IMG/VR virus record: IMGVR_UViG_3300028920_000001
Location: 312,001-376,000 of that record
Strand: one strand, 5' to 3'
Source: a virus
Length of the DNA stretch: 64,000 nucleotides
Shown: piece after piece, positions 8,418 to 41,802 of the stretch
How the letters are laid out: each line of letters begins with the position of its first letter
How positions within the stretch are numbered: position 1 is the stretch's first letter
Translations under genes and position numbers: made by a program
Notes under the pieces: model-generated
Database searches by the model: none
What the model was told of the DNA's origin: nothing
The model's input: the letters and a program-made list of their open reading frames with translations, nothing else

Positions 8418-8609
8418 ATGAATTTATCTAAAATAGCAATTCGAATTGCAGGTTTGACTCAGCCTCTATCTGAACGTCCTGACTACGGGAGTCGTGAGTC
8501 TTCTCGAGGCTGTCCTAAATGCGGATTTGTTAAGGGAAATAATGGTGAAATCTATGATCCTACTTATCCCTGTCCTGGTTGTGGTAATGGTGGTGTAAAA
8601 TCTGGTTGA
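8418..8609 (+). CDS. Small zinc-ribbon protein with the MNLSKIAIRIAG start
   Basis: The frame is open from 8364, but the ATG beginning MNLSKIAIRIAG is the better start, because it matches MNLSRIAKKIAE of the gene starting at 5689. The 63-residue product has two zinc-knuckle pairs, CPKC and CPGC, 24 residues apart, after a Gly/Ser/Arg-rich linker. It may be a single zinc ribbon carrying the shared tag. A TATAAT at 8393-8398 could be its -10 box. Confidence 0.55.
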   Translation: MNLSKIAIRIAGLTQPLSERPDYGSRESSRGCPKCGFVKGNNGEIYDPTYPCPGCGNGGVKSG

Positions 8610-8633
8610 AAATAATATTAATCTTTTTATAAT
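8606..8633 (+). promoter_or_regulatory. Sigma70-like promoter for the virion-type gene at 8684
   Basis: TTGAAA (8606-8611) and TATAAT (8628-8633) are separated by 16 bases. Transcription would start near 8640, leaving a leader of about 44 bases that includes the hairpin at 8659-8677. This is one of the best host-type promoter matches seen in the window. Confidence 0.5.
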
Positions 8634-8658
8634 CAGATCTTCGTTCATCTAGTAGAGT

Positions 8659-8677
8659 ACTCCTAGATGATAGGAGT
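8659..8677 (+). promoter_or_regulatory. Hairpin that buries the Shine-Dalgarno of the gene at 8684
   Basis: ACTCCTA (8659-8665) and TAGGAGT (8671-8677) form a perfect 7-bp stem with the five-base loop GATGA. The ribosome site AGGAG (8672-8676), seven bases from the ATG, is entirely in the 3' arm. Pairing would block initiation until it is melted, displaced or absent from a shorter transcript. Confidence 0.5.
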
Positions 8678-8683
8678 CCAACA

Positions 8684-9700
8684 ATGGCTGAGATGATAAA
8701 ATGGAAGAGGGGTCAATTTTTCACTTTTTACGCTCAGATGAAGATCCGAGTGGGAGGATTGAACGGCCAGCCGGATATTGAAATTGCGGCTGGAGATGAA
8801 TTTGAATATGATGGTAGCATTTGTAAATATGCAGGTGCTGAATATCCTCAGCAAGGGCTCCGAGGGGCCGTTCGAGAGGGTTGGGCTACTACTGAGGAGG
8901 ATGCCGGGATTCCTGAAGGTAGGACTGCGGCTCGAAATGTAGCAGAGGCTCAATCTGTGAATCGAGATCTGAGTCGGGTTCAACGTCGTTCGGCCGCTCA
9001 GCCTATTGAGCAAGATTCTTTAGACGAAGAAACTGTTTTAGAAATTGGAGATCGGGAAGCTGCGATGGACCCTGTCACTCGTAAGGGCCATCTGACAGCT
9101 AGGGACAATCGTGGTCGTCAACTTAGGTCGGCTCGAGGAATGGAAATCGAGCAAAGTGACTTGGATGAACAGGACCATACCCCTATTTCACCTATCAAAT
9201 CACCTGCGAAGATTAAGGTAGATGTTACTGCTAATCCTAATGCGGCCCGGGACATCGAGATGCGATCTGTGGATCAAGGATATGGCCGATATGCAGGTAA
9301 GAAACCGGGTCGTTCGAATGTAATTGTAAGGGAGGGAGTTGAGATCCGAACTGACGTAAGGGGCGACTCCGCAATTGGTGGCGAAGAGACTGGAACGGTA
9401 GTTAGTCCGGTCCGTAACGTTTCCCAGAGGAAAGCTAAGATGGATAAAGAGAATAACAAGAAGCCCGTTAAGAAAGCCTCCAAGAAGAACCAGGGTATGT
9501 CCCCCAAACTTCAAAAGGCCGTCGAGCTTTATGCTGATTTCCCTCGTGATTGGAATTTCTTTGGGAAGACTGAAGAAAAGATCGCCAAGCTCAAGGAAAT
9601 CAGCCCTGACGCTGAGTTGCTGAATGCTCTATACGCTTCTGAAAGCAAATCAACTAAGGAAGCTCTGAAGAAAGCTTATCCAAAGCACTCCTTTTCCTGA
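8684..9700 (+). CDS. Probable virion-associated protein, conserved N-terminal domain and basic linker
   Basis: The 338-residue protein begins with a compact beta domain (KWKRGQFFTFYAQMKIRVGG and GDEFEYDGSICKYAGAEY) of about 70 residues, then a long low-complexity charged region, a Lys-rich stretch (KENNKKPVKKASKKNQG) and a C-terminal helical domain (LYADFPRDWNFFGKTEEKIA). GC content is higher than in the accessory genes around it, as in the other likely virion genes here. The ribosome site AGGAG is good but lies in a hairpin. I do not know the family; a head or tail accessory protein is an inference from location. Confidence 0.55.
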   Translation: MAEMIKWKRGQFFTFYAQMKIRVGGLNGQPDIEIAAGDEFEYDGSICKYAGAEYPQQGLRGAVREGWATTEEDAGIPEGRTAARNVAEAQSVNRDLSRVQRRSAAQPIEQDSLDEETVLEIGDREAAMDPVTRKGHLTARDNRGRQLRSARGMEIEQSDLDEQDHTPISPIKSPAKIKVDVTANPNAARDIEMRSVDQGYGRYAGKKPGRSNVIVREGVEIRTDVRGDSAIGGEETGTVVSPVRNVSQRKAKMDKENNKKPVKKASKKNQGMSPKLQKAVELYADFPRDWNFFGKTEEKIAKLKEISPDAELLNALYASESKSTKEALKKAYPKHSFS

Positions 9701-9714
9701 TTTCAAGCTTTGAT

Positions 9715-10089
9715 GTGGCGGTCCTATTGATGCAGTATAGGACCGCCACTGGGGCAACTATATATCTTCAGGAGGAGCTTTCTACATCGAGACTTCATAC
9801 TGAAAATATAAAGCATTTAATTGTTAGAGCTTATGATTTAATTAACGCCAGTGAGAATCGAGACCACTTTTTTGCTGTGGCTGGCGATATCATTTATTCA
9901 CTTCCTCGAGAAGTTGAAGCGCTGGAACGTTCACTTAATGCTAGCGCAATGGCGGTCAATAAAATTGATTATGAAGAATTGCGCCAAGCCTTAAGACCTG
10001 ATAAAATAGATGAGTTGGAGCGAGTTTTAGATGATGTCCGACTCAAAATCCCAAGACGTACAGGTAAACTCCCAGTCATTGAAGAATAA
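9715..10089 (+). CDS. Hypothetical protein
   Basis: The GTG start, or an ATG five codons later (LLMQYRTATG), gives about 120 residues. A short strand region (RTATGATIYLQEEL) is followed by helices (ENIKHLIVRAYDLINA and IDYEELRQALRPDKIDELER). The last 59 bases overlap the upstream-most start of the nuclease fusion gene, suggesting that the nuclease gene was inserted right at its end. Function unknown; probably part of the structural gene cluster. Confidence 0.5.
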   Translation: MAVLLMQYRTATGATIYLQEELSTSRLHTENIKHLIVRAYDLINASENRDHFFAVAGDIIYSLPREVEALERSLNASAMAVNKIDYEELRQALRPDKIDELERVLDDVRLKIPRRTGKLPVIEE

Positions 10090-11518
10090 TTATCTGGATT
10101 ATATTATTGGTGAGTATGATAAAATCACAGATAGAACTATTGTAATTGCAAAGTGCAAATTTTGTGGGTCTCATTGTGAAATTAAAGTAAAGAATTTAAA
10201 AGCAATTATTCGTAGTAAACATATTTTTCAATGCAGAAGTTGTTCAATTAAGGCACTATGGAAGAAACCTGAGTATATAAGTAAAATTAGGCAAACTCAA
10301 ATAGCAGTATGGTCTGATTCTGAAACTAAGGATAAAATTTCATATAAGTCAAAGCTTGTATGGCAGGACGCTGAATATAGGAAAAAACAAGAAGAAATTC
10401 ATTCGGATCCAGAGTATCTTAATAAAACTGCAGATTATTCTAGAAAATTATGGGAAAGAAATGGATTTAGGAGGAATCAAGAAAAAATAAGGTCTGATCC
10501 AGAATGGTTAAAAGAGCATGCCGAGCGTTCTCGTAAATTATGGAAGGATCAGATTTATAAAATTAAGCAAAGTAAAGCTAGATTAGAATGGTTAAATACC
10601 TGTAAAGATTCAGGGATTGAGAGAACAACGCAATCTTTGTTACACTTATTGGGTGTTGAATTCAAAATTCATTATCAAATTGGTCATTATGAATTTGATA
10701 TTTTTGTCTCCTCTCATAATTTATTAATTGAATGTCAAGGAGAATACTGGCATAGTACGAAACAAGCTAAACGACGGGATGCTGCCAAGGCTTCTTATAT
10801 CCATGAATATTTTCCTGATTATAGAATACTATATCTATATGAGAGAGAATTTTTAAATCCTAATTTAGTGAAACAAAAATTAGAGCAAGCATTACATCGA
10901 ATAAGTCCTGATATTAAAATTCAACATTTCGATTTAAATTCAGTTACGATTATGAAATTATCTGTTAAAAATAAATTACAAAAATCTTTTTATTCAGAGC
11001 CTGAAGAATTTCTTCAATCATTTCATTATGCGGGCTTTGGAAGATCAGCTAAAGTAATTTACGGGGCTTATTTAGGTGATAAGTTAACTGCTGTATGTAA
11101 ATTTTCTAGGATTATACGGCAAGAAGTTGCTACGTCTATGAAATTAAAGCCATCAGAAGTCCTGGAATTAGATAGGTTTTGTATTCATCCGGAATATCAA
11201 AAGAAGAATTTCGCCTCTTGGTTTATTTCTCGTTGTTCTAAATTAATATTTCAAGAATATGAAATTAAATGTCTGGTGTCATTTGCTGATTTAACATTTG
11301 GGCACACTGGGATTATTTACAAGGCTGCTAATTGGGAAGAGATAGGAAAGATTCGACCTGATTATTATTATGTCTCAGAGGATGGATTTATTCTTCATAA
11401 GAAAACTTTGTATAATCGAGCTCGAAAAATGGGTATGACCGAACGGAAATATGTAGAAGAATATAAATATACTAGGACTTATGGGAAAGGAAAAATTAAA
11501 TATATTCTAAAACGCTAA
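10031..11518 (+). CDS. PD-(D/E)XK/Vsr-like nuclease fused to a Mom-like acetyltransferase-fold domain
   Basis: The 495-residue protein has four parts. (1) A zinc ribbon (CKFCGSHC near 42, CRSCS near 68). (2) Short helical repeats, each ending in a Trp or SRKLW-type motif (DYSRKLW, ERSRKLW), as in modular DNA-binding regions of homing enzymes. (3) A nuclease core around 195-290 with HYEFDIFVSSHNLLIECQGE: D, then E-x-Q with the following EYWHS, as in Vsr and PD-(D/E)XK homing nucleases. (4) A C-terminal 170-residue domain with VLELDRFCIHPEYQKKNFAS, KCLVSFADLTFGHTGIIYKA and KKTLYNRARKMGMTE. Part 4 resembles phage Mu Mom (ELNRM, then SFAD and a G-T-I-Y-R-A segment), a GNAT-fold DNA adenine-modifying protein. 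The start is ATG 10031 or TTG 10079. The gene at 40348 shares part 4 only. Confidence 0.7.
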   Translation: MMSDSKSQDVQVNSQSLKNNYLDYIIGEYDKITDRTIVIAKCKFCGSHCEIKVKNLKAIIRSKHIFQCRSCSIKALWKKPEYISKIRQTQIAVWSDSETKDKISYKSKLVWQDAEYRKKQEEIHSDPEYLNKTADYSRKLWERNGFRRNQEKIRSDPEWLKEHAERSRKLWKDQIYKIKQSKARLEWLNTCKDSGIERTTQSLLHLLGVEFKIHYQIGHYEFDIFVSSHNLLIECQGEYWHSTKQAKRRDAAKASYIHEYFPDYRILYLYEREFLNPNLVKQKLEQALHRISPDIKIQHFDLNSVTIMKLSVKNKLQKSFYSEPEEFLQSFHYAGFGRSAKVIYGAYLGDKLTAVCKFSRIIRQEVATSMKLKPSEVLELDRFCIHPEYQKKNFASWFISRCSKLIFQEYEIKCLVSFADLTFGHTGIIYKAANWEEIGKIRPDYYYVSEDGFILHKKTLYNRARKMGMTERKYVEEYKYTRTYGKGKIKYILKR

Positions 11519-11533
11519 TACTTAATATGTAAT

Positions 11534-12808
11534 ATGAGTGACGATATTCATGGCTTTATTTTAAGTGAAGCCGCACTTTATTCATTTAAAGCTCAGGATG
11601 TATTTCCTGACTTAATTAGTTTCTGTGCTGCTATTCCGGATCATTTACGACCGTTATTTTTAATTCCAATTCAACTTGATACTAATTCTGATGTTCCCTA
11701 CGGGAATTTGGCTTCCGTGGCTTCTAGAGTGGCTTCATATACTTATATGGATGGTATGCACAATGCTACTCCAGAAGGGGAACTATTTAGCTATCAAACC
11801 TTTGTTTATGACGAAGATGAACCACCTTTAATTCCTAGTTCTGAACCTGGTTCAATTCACAATAAAGATACTGGTCCAACTAAAACGCATCATCAAGAGG
11901 ATCCTGAGGAGGACGAGAATATTCAAGTTCCAACTGATACTTCATATATGTCAGATGTGGATATGACCCAATATTGGGATTATCCATATCGAAGTGAAGA
12001 ACAACCTCGTCACTCTTCAATTATGATTGCTGCTCGTTCTTTAGCTCGGAGAGTTGCCCTTAAAACTGAACAGCTTGAGACTAAGGCTCCGGAAGAAATT
12101 CAAGATCGGGCTGAGACTTGTTTGGTCAATTTTATTTCTTATGATAAGAGGGGTCGAGTTTTTACTTTTGAAGTAAATTGTGGAAATGTTCCTCGGACGG
12201 TTAGAGCAGCCATGTCAGATATTGATCATGTTGCTTTGACGTGTAATTGTCCGTTTTGGCAATACGGTGGTCCTGAATTTCATGCTAAAGAGAACCGTTA
12301 TCTTTTAGGTCCTCCTCGGGGAACTGCTACTCCTCCTGATATTCGAGATCCAGATAGAAAATTTTTTCTTTGTAAACATGCTTATGCTGTTTTAGCTCGC
12401 CTTGATCATTTTGTAGAACGAATTGTTGAGGAGAATTGGGACTTGGATGATGCAGAATTACTAGAAATAATTGATAAAGAATGGGATAAACTTGAGCCTA
12501 CTGCTCAGATTGATCTTGATGAAGCTATAGAGGAAGAACCCGAAATAGAGGAAATAGAAGAAGAGCCTGAGGGGGCTGAAGAAGAGCCTGAAGAGGCTGA
12601 GGCTGAGGTTGAAGAAGAGTCTGAAGAGCCTGAGGTTGAAGAAGAGCCTGAGGAGGCTGAGGCTGAAGAGCCTGAGGAGGCTGAGGAGGCTGAGCCTGAG
12701 GAGGCTGAGGCTGAGGCTGAAGAGCCTGAGGAGGCTGAGGCTGAAGAGCCTGAGGAGGCTGAGGCTGAAGAGCCTGAGGCTGAAGAAGAGGAAGAAAAAG
12801 AAAAATAG
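11534..12808 (+). CDS. SWIM-like zinc-finger protein with acidic repeat tail
   Basis: This 424-residue protein has a central CxC...CxH motif: LTCNCPFWQYGGPEF near residue 236 and FFLCKHAYAVLARL near 281, spaced as in an enlarged SWIM zinc finger, usually a DNA- or protein-binding module. IMIAARSLARRVALK near 165 and LASVASRVASY near 58 are internal matches to the recurrent IAxRIA motif. The last 90 residues are almost only Glu, Ala and Pro, encoded by tandem DNA repeats. I recall similar C-P-x-W...C-K-H proteins from large phages, function unknown. A virion or assembly role is inferred from its position among structural genes. Confidence 0.6.
   Translation: MSDDIHGFILSEAALYSFKAQDVFPDLISFCAAIPDHLRPLFLIPIQLDTNSDVPYGNLASVASRVASYTYMDGMHNATPEGELFSYQTFVYDEDEPPLIPSSEPGSIHNKDTGPTKTHHQEDPEEDENIQVPTDTSYMSDVDMTQYWDYPYRSEEQPRHSSIMIAARSLARRVALKTEQLETKAPEEIQDRAETCLVNFISYDKRGRVFTFEVNCGNVPRTVRAAMSDIDHVALTCNCPFWQYGGPEFHAKENRYLLGPPRGTATPPDIRDPDRKFFLCKHAYAVLARLDHFVERIVEENWDLDDAELLEIIDKEWDKLEPTAQIDLDEAIEEEPEIEEIEEEPEGAEEEPEEAEAEVEEESEEPEVEEEPEEAEAEEPEEAEEAEPEEAEAEAEEPEEAEAEEPEEAEAEEPEAEEEEEKEK
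12537..12792 (+). repeat. Tandem DNA repeats encoding an acidic Glu/Ala/Pro tail
   Basis: About 255 bases built from variations on a 24-base unit containing GCTGAAGAGCCTGAGGAG, with six-base (GAGGCT) subunits. Several copies are perfect (for example at 12715-12740 and 12742-12767). Such repeats expand and contract by slippage, so the length of the acidic tail probably varies between isolates. Confidence 0.8.
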
Positions 12809-12819
12809 TATAGTGATAT

Positions 12820-13236
12820 ATGTTATATGATTATGAATGTACTAAATGTGGGAATATTCAAGAAGAAGAAGCTAGGGTAGCTGAATTTAAAGAATTTGAG
12901 CCTACCTGCAATGAATGTGGGGGTAAATGTAAATATCATTTTACCCCAACTGTGATTCAGTTTGCTTTAAAAGATGGCCCATCTGGATCTTGGCCATCTA
13001 AGGGAAACAGATTTAAAAATTATCGAGCTAAGCAGAGCGAGGCGGTTAAAAAGCGTCAACGTGAAAGATATGGGGGTGGTAATAAATTAATTCCGAATTA
13101 TAGAGGCCAACGGACCGAAGATTGGCGGGAAGCTCAATCTATGGCTATGCAAGATAAAGATAATCCTGATTCTTTAGCGACTGCATCTACTTATAACGAA
13201 CAAATCAACAAAGAGAAGGCCGCTAAAGCTAAATAG
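12820..13236 (+). CDS. FmdB-type zinc-ribbon protein, copy 1
   Basis: The 138 residues start with the putative-regulator FmdB/CxxC zinc ribbon: MLYDYECTKCGNIQEEE, then PTCNECGGKCKYHF, followed by a phage-type extension (FALKDGPSGSWPSKGNRFKN) and a basic helical tail. The family binds zinc; its role in phages is unknown. A second copy lies at 50432. Both are preceded by the identical 12-mer AAATAGTATAGT, which contains the stop of the preceding gene. Here it lies five bases before the ATG. Confidence 0.75.
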   Translation: MLYDYECTKCGNIQEEEARVAEFKEFEPTCNECGGKCKYHFTPTVIQFALKDGPSGSWPSKGNRFKNYRAKQSEAVKKRQRERYGGGNKLIPNYRGQRTEDWREAQSMAMQDKDNPDSLATASTYNEQINKEKAAKAK

Positions 13237-13250
13237 TTTAATTCCCAGGC

Positions 13251-13257
13251 CTTTAAT
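13251..13257 (+). promoter_or_regulatory. CTTTAAT box (candidate late promoter element)
   Basis: CTTTAAT lies 18 bases before the ATG at 13275 in a 38-base gap between virion-type genes. The same heptamer occurs upstream of the starts at 14005, 47965 and, on the minus strand, 62364. It could be a phage late promoter element. The sequence is short and AT-rich, so chance matches are expected. Confidence 0.25.
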
Positions 13258-13274
13258 TTCTCAGTAAATCCGAG

Positions 13275-13964
13275 ATGCCTCGATCTATATCTGTAACTCG
13301 TCGTAAGCCAGATTTAATTGATTTGTTCGTTGAGAAACGAGCAGGTGTGACTGGGTTCCAGTTTTCTGTAGCTGCTAATTTTGACTCTGCTTTAACTGTT
13401 TTTCAGGAAATACCAATTTATGGATATGCTTCCCCTTCAGTTATAGGAAACGCTACTATTAATAAGTATGCTGGGGCGATAGGCAATCAGTATCGGAATA
13501 AAACTCGGTTTGTATTTGCTCCGTCTGATTATACTGCGTCTGTTGCTGCGATGCGCGATGATAAGCCTATATATTTAAGTATTAAACAGCGAAATGCTGA
13601 TGGTAGTTTAGGTGCCGCTGAAGCATTACATATGATTGTGCCTCCTCCATGGCCTGGTCGCCGGCCGATCATGTTACGTGGAACAGTTCCACTTGGTGCT
13701 AATATAGCAGCTTCTTTGGAAATCCAGCTTCCTATGTCTTGTTATGATTGGGAGATTCAAAATGGCGGAGCTGCTGATATGTATATTGCTTTTGAGCGGG
13801 GTGTAGGAACTACAACAGATCCGGAATTCAGACTACCTCCTGCTACTTCAGTATTTAGGAGTTTAGAGCAGTACGCAACTAATATTTCTCAAATATTTTT
13901 GCGGGGAGCCGGTGCTAGCACAATAATTGATGGAATATTTACGGCACGTAATGAAGAACTTTAA
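13275..13964 (+). CDS. Probable virion protein
   Basis: The 229-residue protein is almost entirely beta-rich, with many small residues and no charged coiled coil: for example GFQFSVAANFDSALTVFQEI, PIYLSIKQRNADG and SLEIQLPMSCYDWEIQNGGA. Predicted strands and a C-terminal FLRGAGASTIIDG segment fit a jelly-roll-like decoration or tail protein. It is the first of three consecutive structural-type genes. I do not recognise the family. Confidence 0.5.
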   Translation: MPRSISVTRRKPDLIDLFVEKRAGVTGFQFSVAANFDSALTVFQEIPIYGYASPSVIGNATINKYAGAIGNQYRNKTRFVFAPSDYTASVAAMRDDKPIYLSIKQRNADGSLGAAEALHMIVPPPWPGRRPIMLRGTVPLGANIAASLEIQLPMSCYDWEIQNGGAADMYIAFERGVGTTTDPEFRLPPATSVFRSLEQYATNISQIFLRGAGASTIIDGIFTARNEEL

Positions 13965-15794: not shown

Positions 15795-16535
15795 ATGAAG
15801 GAAAAAACAATAAGAAAAATTTGTCCACTTTGCGGTAAAGAATATTTTACTATTCATAGGGATTCAAAATTCTGTAGTAGAATTTGTTCAAATAAAAATA
15901 GGCGTAGATCAGATGAGAATGGGTTCTTTGATAGGGTATGTAAAAATTGTGGGATAAGATTTAAGACTAAGAGATCATCTAACTATTGTAGTACTCAATG
16001 TTATTCTAAATTAAAATTTGGTGTAAGGGATTTTCCAGAGCCTCTTCCTGTACAAGGTGCACGATGGGTTGAATTAGGATATGGGACTTTTTCTTTAATT
16101 GATGAAACAGATTATGAATTAGTTTCCAATGTTCTTTGGAGATTGCATAAGCGTGGCTATGCTTATCGATTGGTTAAAGGTCAAAATATATATTTGCATC
16201 GTTTTATTATGGAATCACATTTAGGGAAAATCCGAGAGACTATAGATCATATTAACGGGGATAAACTAGATAATCGAAAGTGCAATCTTAGAGTAGCTAC
16301 TCAATCTCAAAATAATGCAAATCAAAAAATGCAAGAAAATACTACTAGTGAATACAAAGGTGTTTGTTTTAATCGAAATCTAAAAGCCAACTGTTGGAGG
16401 GCCTATATTCGACATAATTATAAAATGATTAATATAGGATCTTTTTCATCTGAAGAAGCAGCTGCTCGAGCTTATGACCAAAAAGCCAAAGAGTTGTTCG
16501 GTACATTTGCGAAGCTAAATTTTCCAGAGTCTTAG
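15795..16535 (+). CDS. HNH homing endonuclease with AP2 DNA-binding domain
   Basis: The 246 residues carry two N-terminal zinc-finger-like motifs (CPLCGKEYF..CSRIC and CKNCGIRFK..CSTQC). An HNH nuclease follows: YLHRFIMESH, then TIDHINGDKLDNRKCNLRVA with His-Asn-His catalytic positions. The protein ends with an AP2 domain (SEYKGVCFNRN, WRAYIRHNYKMINIGSFSSE, AAARAYDQKAKELFG). This is the standard architecture of free-standing phage homing endonucleases, which copy their own gene into lacking relatives by cutting the empty site. It is inserted between a small gene and virion genes. The base composition is more AT-rich than in the structural genes. Confidence 0.92.
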   Translation: MKEKTIRKICPLCGKEYFTIHRDSKFCSRICSNKNRRRSDENGFFDRVCKNCGIRFKTKRSSNYCSTQCYSKLKFGVRDFPEPLPVQGARWVELGYGTFSLIDETDYELVSNVLWRLHKRGYAYRLVKGQNIYLHRFIMESHLGKIRETIDHINGDKLDNRKCNLRVATQSQNNANQKMQENTTSEYKGVCFNRNLKANCWRAYIRHNYKMINIGSFSSEEAAARAYDQKAKELFGTFAKLNFPES

Positions 16536-40347: not shown

Positions 40348-41802
40348 ATGAAGAAGGAATATTACGAAGCCCATAAAGAAGAGATTAAACGTAAGGCTCG
40401 AGAACGATATAAGAAAAATCGGGCACGAATTTTAAATCAAAAGAATGAACGATACACTAGAGAGCGAGATAATATTTTAACTCGTAGGCGTAAAGCTTGG
40501 AAAGAAAACTCTGAAATTAAGAAAAACCATGATAAATACCACCGTCAGCTCAAAAATAAATGTTATGAGATTTTAGGTGGTAAATGTGTCCGATGTGGAG
40601 AGGCTAATCATGATTTACTGTCCATTGATCATATAAACGAAGATGGGGCTCAAGAAAGAAAGTCTCTTACTTTAGTTAAACTTCGGTCTAATATTGTAAA
40701 TGGTGTAAATCGGGAGAATTATCAACTTCTTTGTTTCAATTGCAATCTGAAGAAGCACCTGAATTATGAAGAACGATTTTTATTGATTGGGAGAGATAAA
40801 TACTGTCCTACTTGTCGCTTGTCTAAGGATGAATCTCAATTCAAGAAAGATAAATTGTATGAAGATGGTTATTATTATGAATGTCGATTTTGTGTTCAGT
40901 CTAGAGAGTTAGAAGTTAAAATTAAGGTATTTAATTTATTAGGAAAATCTCAATGTAATTGCGGCATCAGTGACGTTGATGTTCTTACTGTTGATCATAT
41001 TGAAAAGATTGGGAAGAAAAGAAAATGGCTAGGTAGTTCTTTATATAGAAAGATTTTACAAGGAGCTTTGAATGCTCAGAATTATCAAGTATTATGTTTG
41101 AACTGCAACATTTTGAAGAGTCTTCAAAATGGAGATAAACAGCATGCGACTAATCTGAAAATTGGTTCTTATATTACTGAGGTTGATTTTGAAGAACCTG
41201 TGACCAAAACCACTTTGGAGTATGACTTAGTTAATTTTGATTTTGAAGATATTATAATTCAGAATATTGATAGGGAAAAATCAGTCGTATTTTTAGAAAA
41301 TTATCACTACATTGGATTTGGAAGATCTGGATTTGGTGCGTATGGGGTATTCTTAGGTGATAAATTAATTGCAGTTGTTAAATTCGCTCCCCCGGTTCGA
41401 CAAAAAGTGGCTAGTTCTATTGGATATGAATCTAATAAAATTTTTGAATTAGATCGATTTTGTATCCATCCTGCCTACCAGAAGAAAAACTTTGCCTCTT
41501 TTCTTTTGTCTCGAGTTGTTAAATTGGTAAAACGAGATTATTCAGACATCAAATGTTTGGTTTCATTTGCTGATCCACGGTATGGGCATGATGGGACAAT
41601 TTATAAGGCTGCGAATTGGAAGTTCGTGAGGAAAACTGCTTATAGTTATGCTTATGAGAATGGGAAAGGTGAAGAGATAAATAAGAAAACTCTCTATAAT
41701 TGGTCAAAGGTTCGAGGGATGACTGAGAAAGAAGGGGTGGAACAACTATGTTTGAAGAAGATTAAGTTACCTCGAAAATTGAAATTTGTGTATGAATTGT
41801 AA
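40348..41802 (+). CDS. Double-HNH nuclease fused to a Mom-like domain
   Basis: The 484 residues begin with a very basic helical region (RKARERYKKNRARILNQKNE). First HNH: CVRCGEANHDLLSIDHINED ... QLLCFNCNLKKHLN. Then a zinc-knuckle segment (CPTCRLSKDES, CRFC). Second HNH: CNCGISDVDVLTVDHIEKIG ... QVLCLNCNILKSLQ. The last 170 residues are the same domain as in the gene at 10031: FELDRFCIHPAYQKKNFASF, KCLVSFADPRYGHDGTIYKA, NKKTLYNWSKVRGMTEKEGV. That domain resembles Mu Mom. So two unrelated nucleases carry one common C-terminal module. It sits between two non-homing genes and is a probable mobile intergenic element. Confidence 0.75.
   Translation: MKKEYYEAHKEEIKRKARERYKKNRARILNQKNERYTRERDNILTRRRKAWKENSEIKKNHDKYHRQLKNKCYEILGGKCVRCGEANHDLLSIDHINEDGAQERKSLTLVKLRSNIVNGVNRENYQLLCFNCNLKKHLNYEERFLLIGRDKYCPTCRLSKDESQFKKDKLYEDGYYYECRFCVQSRELEVKIKVFNLLGKSQCNCGISDVDVLTVDHIEKIGKKRKWLGSSLYRKILQGALNAQNYQVLCLNCNILKSLQNGDKQHATNLKIGSYITEVDFEEPVTKTTLEYDLVNFDFEDIIIQNIDREKSVVFLENYHYIGFGRSGFGAYGVFLGDKLIAVVKFAPPVRQKVASSIGYESNKIFELDRFCIHPAYQKKNFASFLLSRVVKLVKRDYSDIKCLVSFADPRYGHDGTIYKAANWKFVRKTAYSYAYENGKGEEINKKTLYNWSKVRGMTEKEGVEQLCLKKIKLPRKLKFVYEL

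Follow-up and report, generated by a model that had tools for sequence, protein, structure and literature searches.

A Vsr-like homing endonuclease gene of a large virus whose C-terminal domain belongs to the Mom family and retains the Mom active-site residues

Free-standing homing endonucleases, encoded between other genes, must in some way leave their carrier genome unharmed. How this could be achieved within a single polypeptide is the question raised by a gene at positions 10031-11518 of a 64,000-nucleotide stretch of viral DNA (positions 312,001 to 376,000 of IMG/VR record IMGVR_UViG_3300028920_000001; hereafter the window), which belongs to a viral record of 426,960 bases. The 495-amino acid product joins a nuclease to a C-terminal domain resembling Mom, the DNA adenine-modifying protein of phage Mu. 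From sequence comparisons and structure models, we propose, with a probability of roughly 0.6, that the protein is a homing endonuclease bearing a catalytically active Mom-family domain. The parts of the gene are listed below; Mom residues are given in full-length Mu numbering throughout.

10031..11518, + strand: whole gene (495 aa), with zinc ribbon, helical repeats, Vsr-like nuclease and Mom domain
10154..10243, + strand: zinc ribbon, C42-C45...C68-C71, from cysteine conservation
10259..10600, + strand: Trp-ended helical repeats, residues 77-190, helices in the AlphaFold2 (AF2) model; presumed target-DNA-binding region
10613..10894, + strand: Vsr-like, EDxHD-type nuclease domain, residues 195-288 (E197, D223, E234-x-Q236, H241, D250)
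10934..11515, + strand: Mom-family GNAT domain, residues 302-495, from profile, fold and tree
11024..11029, + strand: H332-Y333, equivalent to Mu Mom H58-Y59 (71/71 fusions; 8/8 free-standing Moms)
11165..11176, + strand: ELDR motif, E379-R382, equivalent to Mu E108-R111, from alignment conservation
11216..11218, + strand: S396, equivalent to Mu Mom S124, from the alignment and the title of 8BV8
11288..11290, + strand: D420 of SFAD, equivalent to Mu D149 (70/71 fusions)
11309..11320, + strand: G427-x-x-Y430, equivalent to Mu G156-Y159 (71/71 fusions)

Family, fold and active site of the C-terminal domain

The original prediction had likened this domain to Mom on the basis of three short segments, ELDRF, SFAD and G-I-I-Y-K-A, which do lie in the protein at residues 379-383, 417-420 and 427-432. 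The likeness extends well beyond them. The Pfam Mom family (PF25680) matches the window protein at 1.9e-20 (73.9 bits against a curated cut-off of 27.1), the PHROG family annotated 'Mom-like DNA modification protein' does so at 1.6e-26, and Mu Mom itself (8BV8) is found at 1.9e-5 with the window protein as a single sequence. When the domain is searched alone, as a profile made from the C-termini of the fusions only, 8BV8 is retrieved at 1.9e-9 and is the sole credible match among 177,635 sequences of the Protein Data Bank (PDB). Pfam Mom is detected at E <= 0.01 in all 71 fusions. Identity to Mom over the aligned domain is about 23-28%.

The AF2 model of residues 301-495 is confident, with a mean predicted local distance difference test score (pLDDT) of 94.2 and a predicted template modelling score (pTM) of 0.82, and it is a GNAT fold of the Mom type rather than an unrelated one. 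Its best fold match in the PDB is again Mu Mom 8BV8 (E 5e-11, template modelling score 0.71); many ordinary GNATs follow behind it at E values of about 1e-5 to 1e-4. Among the BFVD models, the fold matches Mom of a Salmonella phage and, in many proteins that bear the name homing endonuclease, the C-terminus.

An invariant set that includes H58, Y59, E108, L109, R111, D149, G156, Y159 and N163 is common to eight free-standing Moms, which come from distant phages. These are the columns that the fusions tend to keep: in 25 fusions, 9 of the 14 Mom-invariant columns reach an identity of at least 90%, compared with 11 of the 134 remaining columns (Fisher p 3e-6). Across 71 nuclease-bearing relatives H332, Y333, R382, G427 and Y430 are invariant, D420 is present in 70 and E379 in 68 (the other three have Asp). 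S396, with which Mu S124 aligns, is kept as Ser in 66 and replaced by Thr in the other 5; the title of 8BV8 reads 'inactive mutant S124A', and it is from this title and from conservation that the importance of residues is judged here. Thus the Mom active-site residues are retained in essentially every relative. A chance or low-complexity likeness to Mom is rejected by the profile, structure and residue tests alike. Judged by profiles and by the predicted fold, the C-terminal domain is a true member of the Mom family of GNAT folds.

A nuclease gene that moves

The N-terminal features of the original prediction (a zinc ribbon, Trp-ended repeats and a D...E-x-Q core) are borne out. The zinc-ribbon cysteines C42/C45 and C68/C71 are each at least 90% conserved among 20 relatives. 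Trp residues recur at positions 77, 94, 111, 141, 159, 171 and 187, and the D-x-E repeats that accompany them are not a product of composition, being matched in 0 of 10,000 shuffles. The nuclease core reads D223...E234-C-Q236...H241...D250, and E197, D223, H241 and D250 supply the E-D-H-D residues of a Vsr-like nuclease fold, the position of E197 being Q in many relatives. The nuclease family profile matches 3R3P (PDB title 'Mobile intron protein'), which we take to be I-Bth0305I, at 1.9e-9. Vsr models match weakly and the scores of Pfam Vsr and MTES_1575 fall below their cut-offs, so that the Vsr-like label is based on the 3R3P match and the residues. A PADLOC homing-endonuclease model covers residues 195-286; PADLOC yields this model only, and a defence-system gene is rejected. 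The nuclease is thus of the Vsr-like, EDxHD homing type as far as its sequence tells, and the predicted fusion of a Vsr-type nuclease to a Mom-like GNAT domain holds.

The immediate neighbours of the gene, and a second element within the window, are as follows.

9715..10089, + strand: upstream flanking gene, 124 aa, no assigned function; its orthologue abuts that of the downstream gene in L065 and L066
11534..12808, + strand: downstream neighbour of 424 aa, with a SWIM-type zinc finger; its orthologue abuts that of the upstream gene in L065 and L066
40348..41802, + strand: sibling element, tandem-HNH nuclease with the same Mom domain, 484 aa

The first ATG of the fusion open reading frame (ORF) falls within the final part of the gene before it, and because of this overlap the true start of the fusion gene may be slightly later. 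Two relatives, L065 (from a 436-kb record) and L066, have both flanking genes as orthologues that abut each other with nothing between them, the empty junction lying around 4974 in L065 and around 6530 in L066. Because of these empty sites the fusion gene is considered, from comparative sequence data, a mobile gene of the homing type, as had been predicted, and a free-standing one. The 436-kb record contains no Mom gene anywhere, and the Mom fusions are missing from it at further insertion sites too. Next to the site of one of these, the HNH-Mom gene L061:2187-3740, the 436-kb relative has an HNH-related sequence (L173); the 92-aa gene that flanks this site has two matches there, one on each side of the HNH-related sequence. 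No Rfam family is found in 8500-13500, and an intron-encoded gene is rejected on that ground.

Five Mom-domain genes are present in the 426,960-base record, every one fused to a nuclease, and none is free-standing. Three are Vsr-like (the window gene, L062:3182-4828 and L063:3655-5538) and two carry tandem HNH domains (L061:2187-3740 and the sibling at 40348-41802, whose HNH is endonuclease VII-like). The record also has a Hef-like gene, whose GNAT domain is diverged; Hef itself is known from T4-related phages as a homing endonuclease with nrdB as its target (PMC2988022). In eight other large viral records Mom genes number 1 to 8 per record, almost all of them in ORFs of 448-659 aa, and the architecture is found on more than 100 viral contigs in a scan with a fusion-only alignment (A2), a mixed alignment (A1) being too diverse. 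The Mom fusions of L145 and L146 are on contigs binned as Candidatus Lokiarchaeota, which are probably viral contigs within those bins.

Copies within one genome share 7-32% identity in the N-terminal part and mostly 39-73% in the Mom domain, a range that leaves out the Hef-like gene of the same genome (25-27% in its Mom domain). Likewise, the mean identity of 65 Vsr-type proteins is 21% in the N-terminal part, 38% in the nuclease and 46% in the Mom domain; between copies, the repeat region is the least conserved part and Mom the best-conserved domain. The Mom coding part of the window gene (10976-11500) has near-identical patches in common with L062 and L063, and the partner switches along the gene, which suggests gene conversion between the Mom parts of the three Vsr-type copies. 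The dN/dS of Mom between copies of this record, about 0.14-0.25, has little weight since dS is near saturation.

In the tree, the fused domains form one group, next to the free-standing Moms, and both stand apart from the Hef C-termini (100/100). Within the fused group, the HNH fusions branch from among the Vsr-type ones, which makes a transfer of the Mom module between types of nuclease probable; it must be noted that the tree has long branches, that of Mu Mom included, and that its root is drawn at the midpoint only. Shortened copies are seen as well: L098:3680-4531 is a 284-aa ORF that has lost its N-terminal part with the Mom site intact, and G006:248328-248627 is a 114-aa Mom remnant. Both look like products of the decay of homing genes.

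What the Mom domain may do

The following scheme would accommodate these features. The zinc ribbon and the Trp-ended helical repeats would find the target, and the Vsr-like domain would cut an allele that lacks the gene, upon which repair would copy the gene in. To judge from its residues, the Mom domain has most likely remained able to modify adenine, acting on DNA near the place where the protein binds: an invariant active site in a domain that is generic favours Mom catalysis. What such a modification would be for is more tentative. It may mark the DNA that carries the element, and so spare the carrier from this nuclease or from a sibling, which would most simply explain why both activities reside in one polypeptide; we would give this suggestion rather less than an even chance. 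It is favoured indirectly by the invariant active site and by the Mom domain being the best conserved where the N-terminal part varies from copy to copy. A fuller version, somewhat doubtful, makes the protein a restriction-modification-like element in which the Vsr-like or HNH half cuts DNA without the gene and Mom marks the target adenines of the carrier. If true, carriers would be spared even where insertion leaves the cut site undestroyed.

Several observations weigh against a catalytic Mom domain that is tied to homing. The glycines of the canonical GNAT acetyl-CoA loop are not evident in the window clade (QKKNFAS). Hef relatives are without some Mom residues (Y59, N163, partly H183) and yet are apparently spreading, and two T4-like phages among them have Asn in place of D149; the Mom fold can therefore persist with an altered site. 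The conserved residues could serve the fold or DNA binding. Mom genes and EDxHD nuclease genes each also occur alone, so that neither needs the other, and an HNH endonuclease of the homing type in the window itself (15795-16535; HNH_3 and AP2-type domains) has no Mom domain.

In one alternative the Mom-like domain is non-catalytic and serves for DNA binding or positioning, its ancestral residues being retained for contacts with DNA or bases. Extra DNA-binding modules are common on phage homing endonucleases (PMC3943268), and the domain, like such modules, is found on both Vsr-like and HNH nucleases, while part of the Mom residue set is lost in the Hef C-termini. Nevertheless, nearly all 71 fusions keep the whole set, including the S124 equivalent, and siblings at different sites have similar Mom domains and very different N-termini, so that target choice probably lies elsewhere in the protein. 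We regard a purely binding role as unlikely, if worth keeping in mind.

Alternatively, an active Mom domain might protect the whole phage genome from host restriction, as in Mu, and would then be cargo that helps the element to be tolerated. Protection from host restriction is the established role of Mom (PMC6483171), and the record has only fusions and no free-standing Mom gene. However, the closest large relative lives without any Mom gene, up to eight nuclease-tied copies per record would be odd for one genome-wide modifier, and a separate gene, such as exists elsewhere, would suffice; we think this improbable. An ordinary GNAT acyltransferase with a protein or small molecule as its substrate, and no part in DNA modification, would fit the matches to many GNAT structures but is very improbable and was rejected, since Mom outranks these matches by five orders of magnitude and the conserved residues are the Mom invariants.

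Hef reportedly cleaves the DNA of its own phage too (a finding ascribed to Sandegren et al. 2005). A Mom modification domain on this class of nucleases, if real, would be a concrete answer to the problem of sparing the carrier. It would also widen Mom from a curiosity of Mu to a multicopy module of very large phages and would point to adenine modifications not yet sought. Should the domain do no more than bind DNA, rereading the 'HNH/homing endonuclease' PHROGs as nuclease plus Mom would still correct many annotations.

Relation to known nucleases and Mom proteins

The combination of nuclease and Mom is already matched by existing phage families and is not unique to the window. PHROG families 559/3339 match the protein over nearly its full length, at 4.7e-24 (residues 15-494) and 2.3e-16 (residues 40-494); they are labelled 'HNH' or 'homing' endonuclease and are Hef-like. 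PHROG 559 has been listed as intron-encoded with a VSR domain only (PMC11878797), the Hef-like genes of LIMEstone1 have been listed as such (PMC3296691), and some GenBank entries read 'nuclease/acetyltransferase', that of a T4-like relative being 'putative nuclease/acetyltransferase'. In a literature search to which subscription papers did not contribute, none of the reports links the fusion proteins to Mom or to its intact active site; given this coverage, a missing report is not proof of novelty.

A 2025 report describes, from group II introns of phages, homing endonucleases in which CapR-like domains accompany a Vsr-like nuclease (PMC12350094). These proteins are a large outgroup that shares a Vsr-like (EDxHD) nuclease and repeated N-terminal DNA-binding domains with the window protein; in contrast, their nuclease is the C-terminal domain, no Mom or GNAT domain is mentioned and the genes lie inside the introns. 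Similarly, I-Bth0305I (3R3P) provides a solved nuclease domain without Mom and is intron-encoded, whereas the window gene is free-standing.

Mu Mom and the free-standing Mom-like proteins (PF25680, PHROG 1384) share with the fused domains the GNAT fold and the key residues, including S124, and are their sister clade. Unlike the fusion, Mom of Mu is a separate gene without a nuclease. One free-standing Mom gene, that of Microbacterium phage Blett (L059:750-1483), adjoins a tRNA-Gly gene; this proximity may be due to chance, or it may possibly be tied to the source of the modifying group.

The closest counterparts in overall design are the Hef-like homing endonucleases, among them Campylobacter phage CP81 hef-1, phiR1-37 g171, AR9 g265 and the F-Lim genes of LIMEstone. 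They have the same order of a zinc or DNA-binding N-terminus, a Vsr-like nuclease and a GNAT/Mom-type C-terminus, and their genes, like that of the window, are free-standing and often multicopy. The Trp-ended repeats, however, are a feature of the window clade, and the window C-terminal domain falls outside the separate Hef clade. With the exception of phiR1-37, Hef C-termini mostly give a weak score or none with Pfam Mom; Y59 and N163 are missing from them, as H183 or D149 often are, whereas in the window clade the Mom set is complete. By its sequence, then, the window gene is a homing endonuclease of the Hef/EDxHD type with an unusually complete Mom active site.
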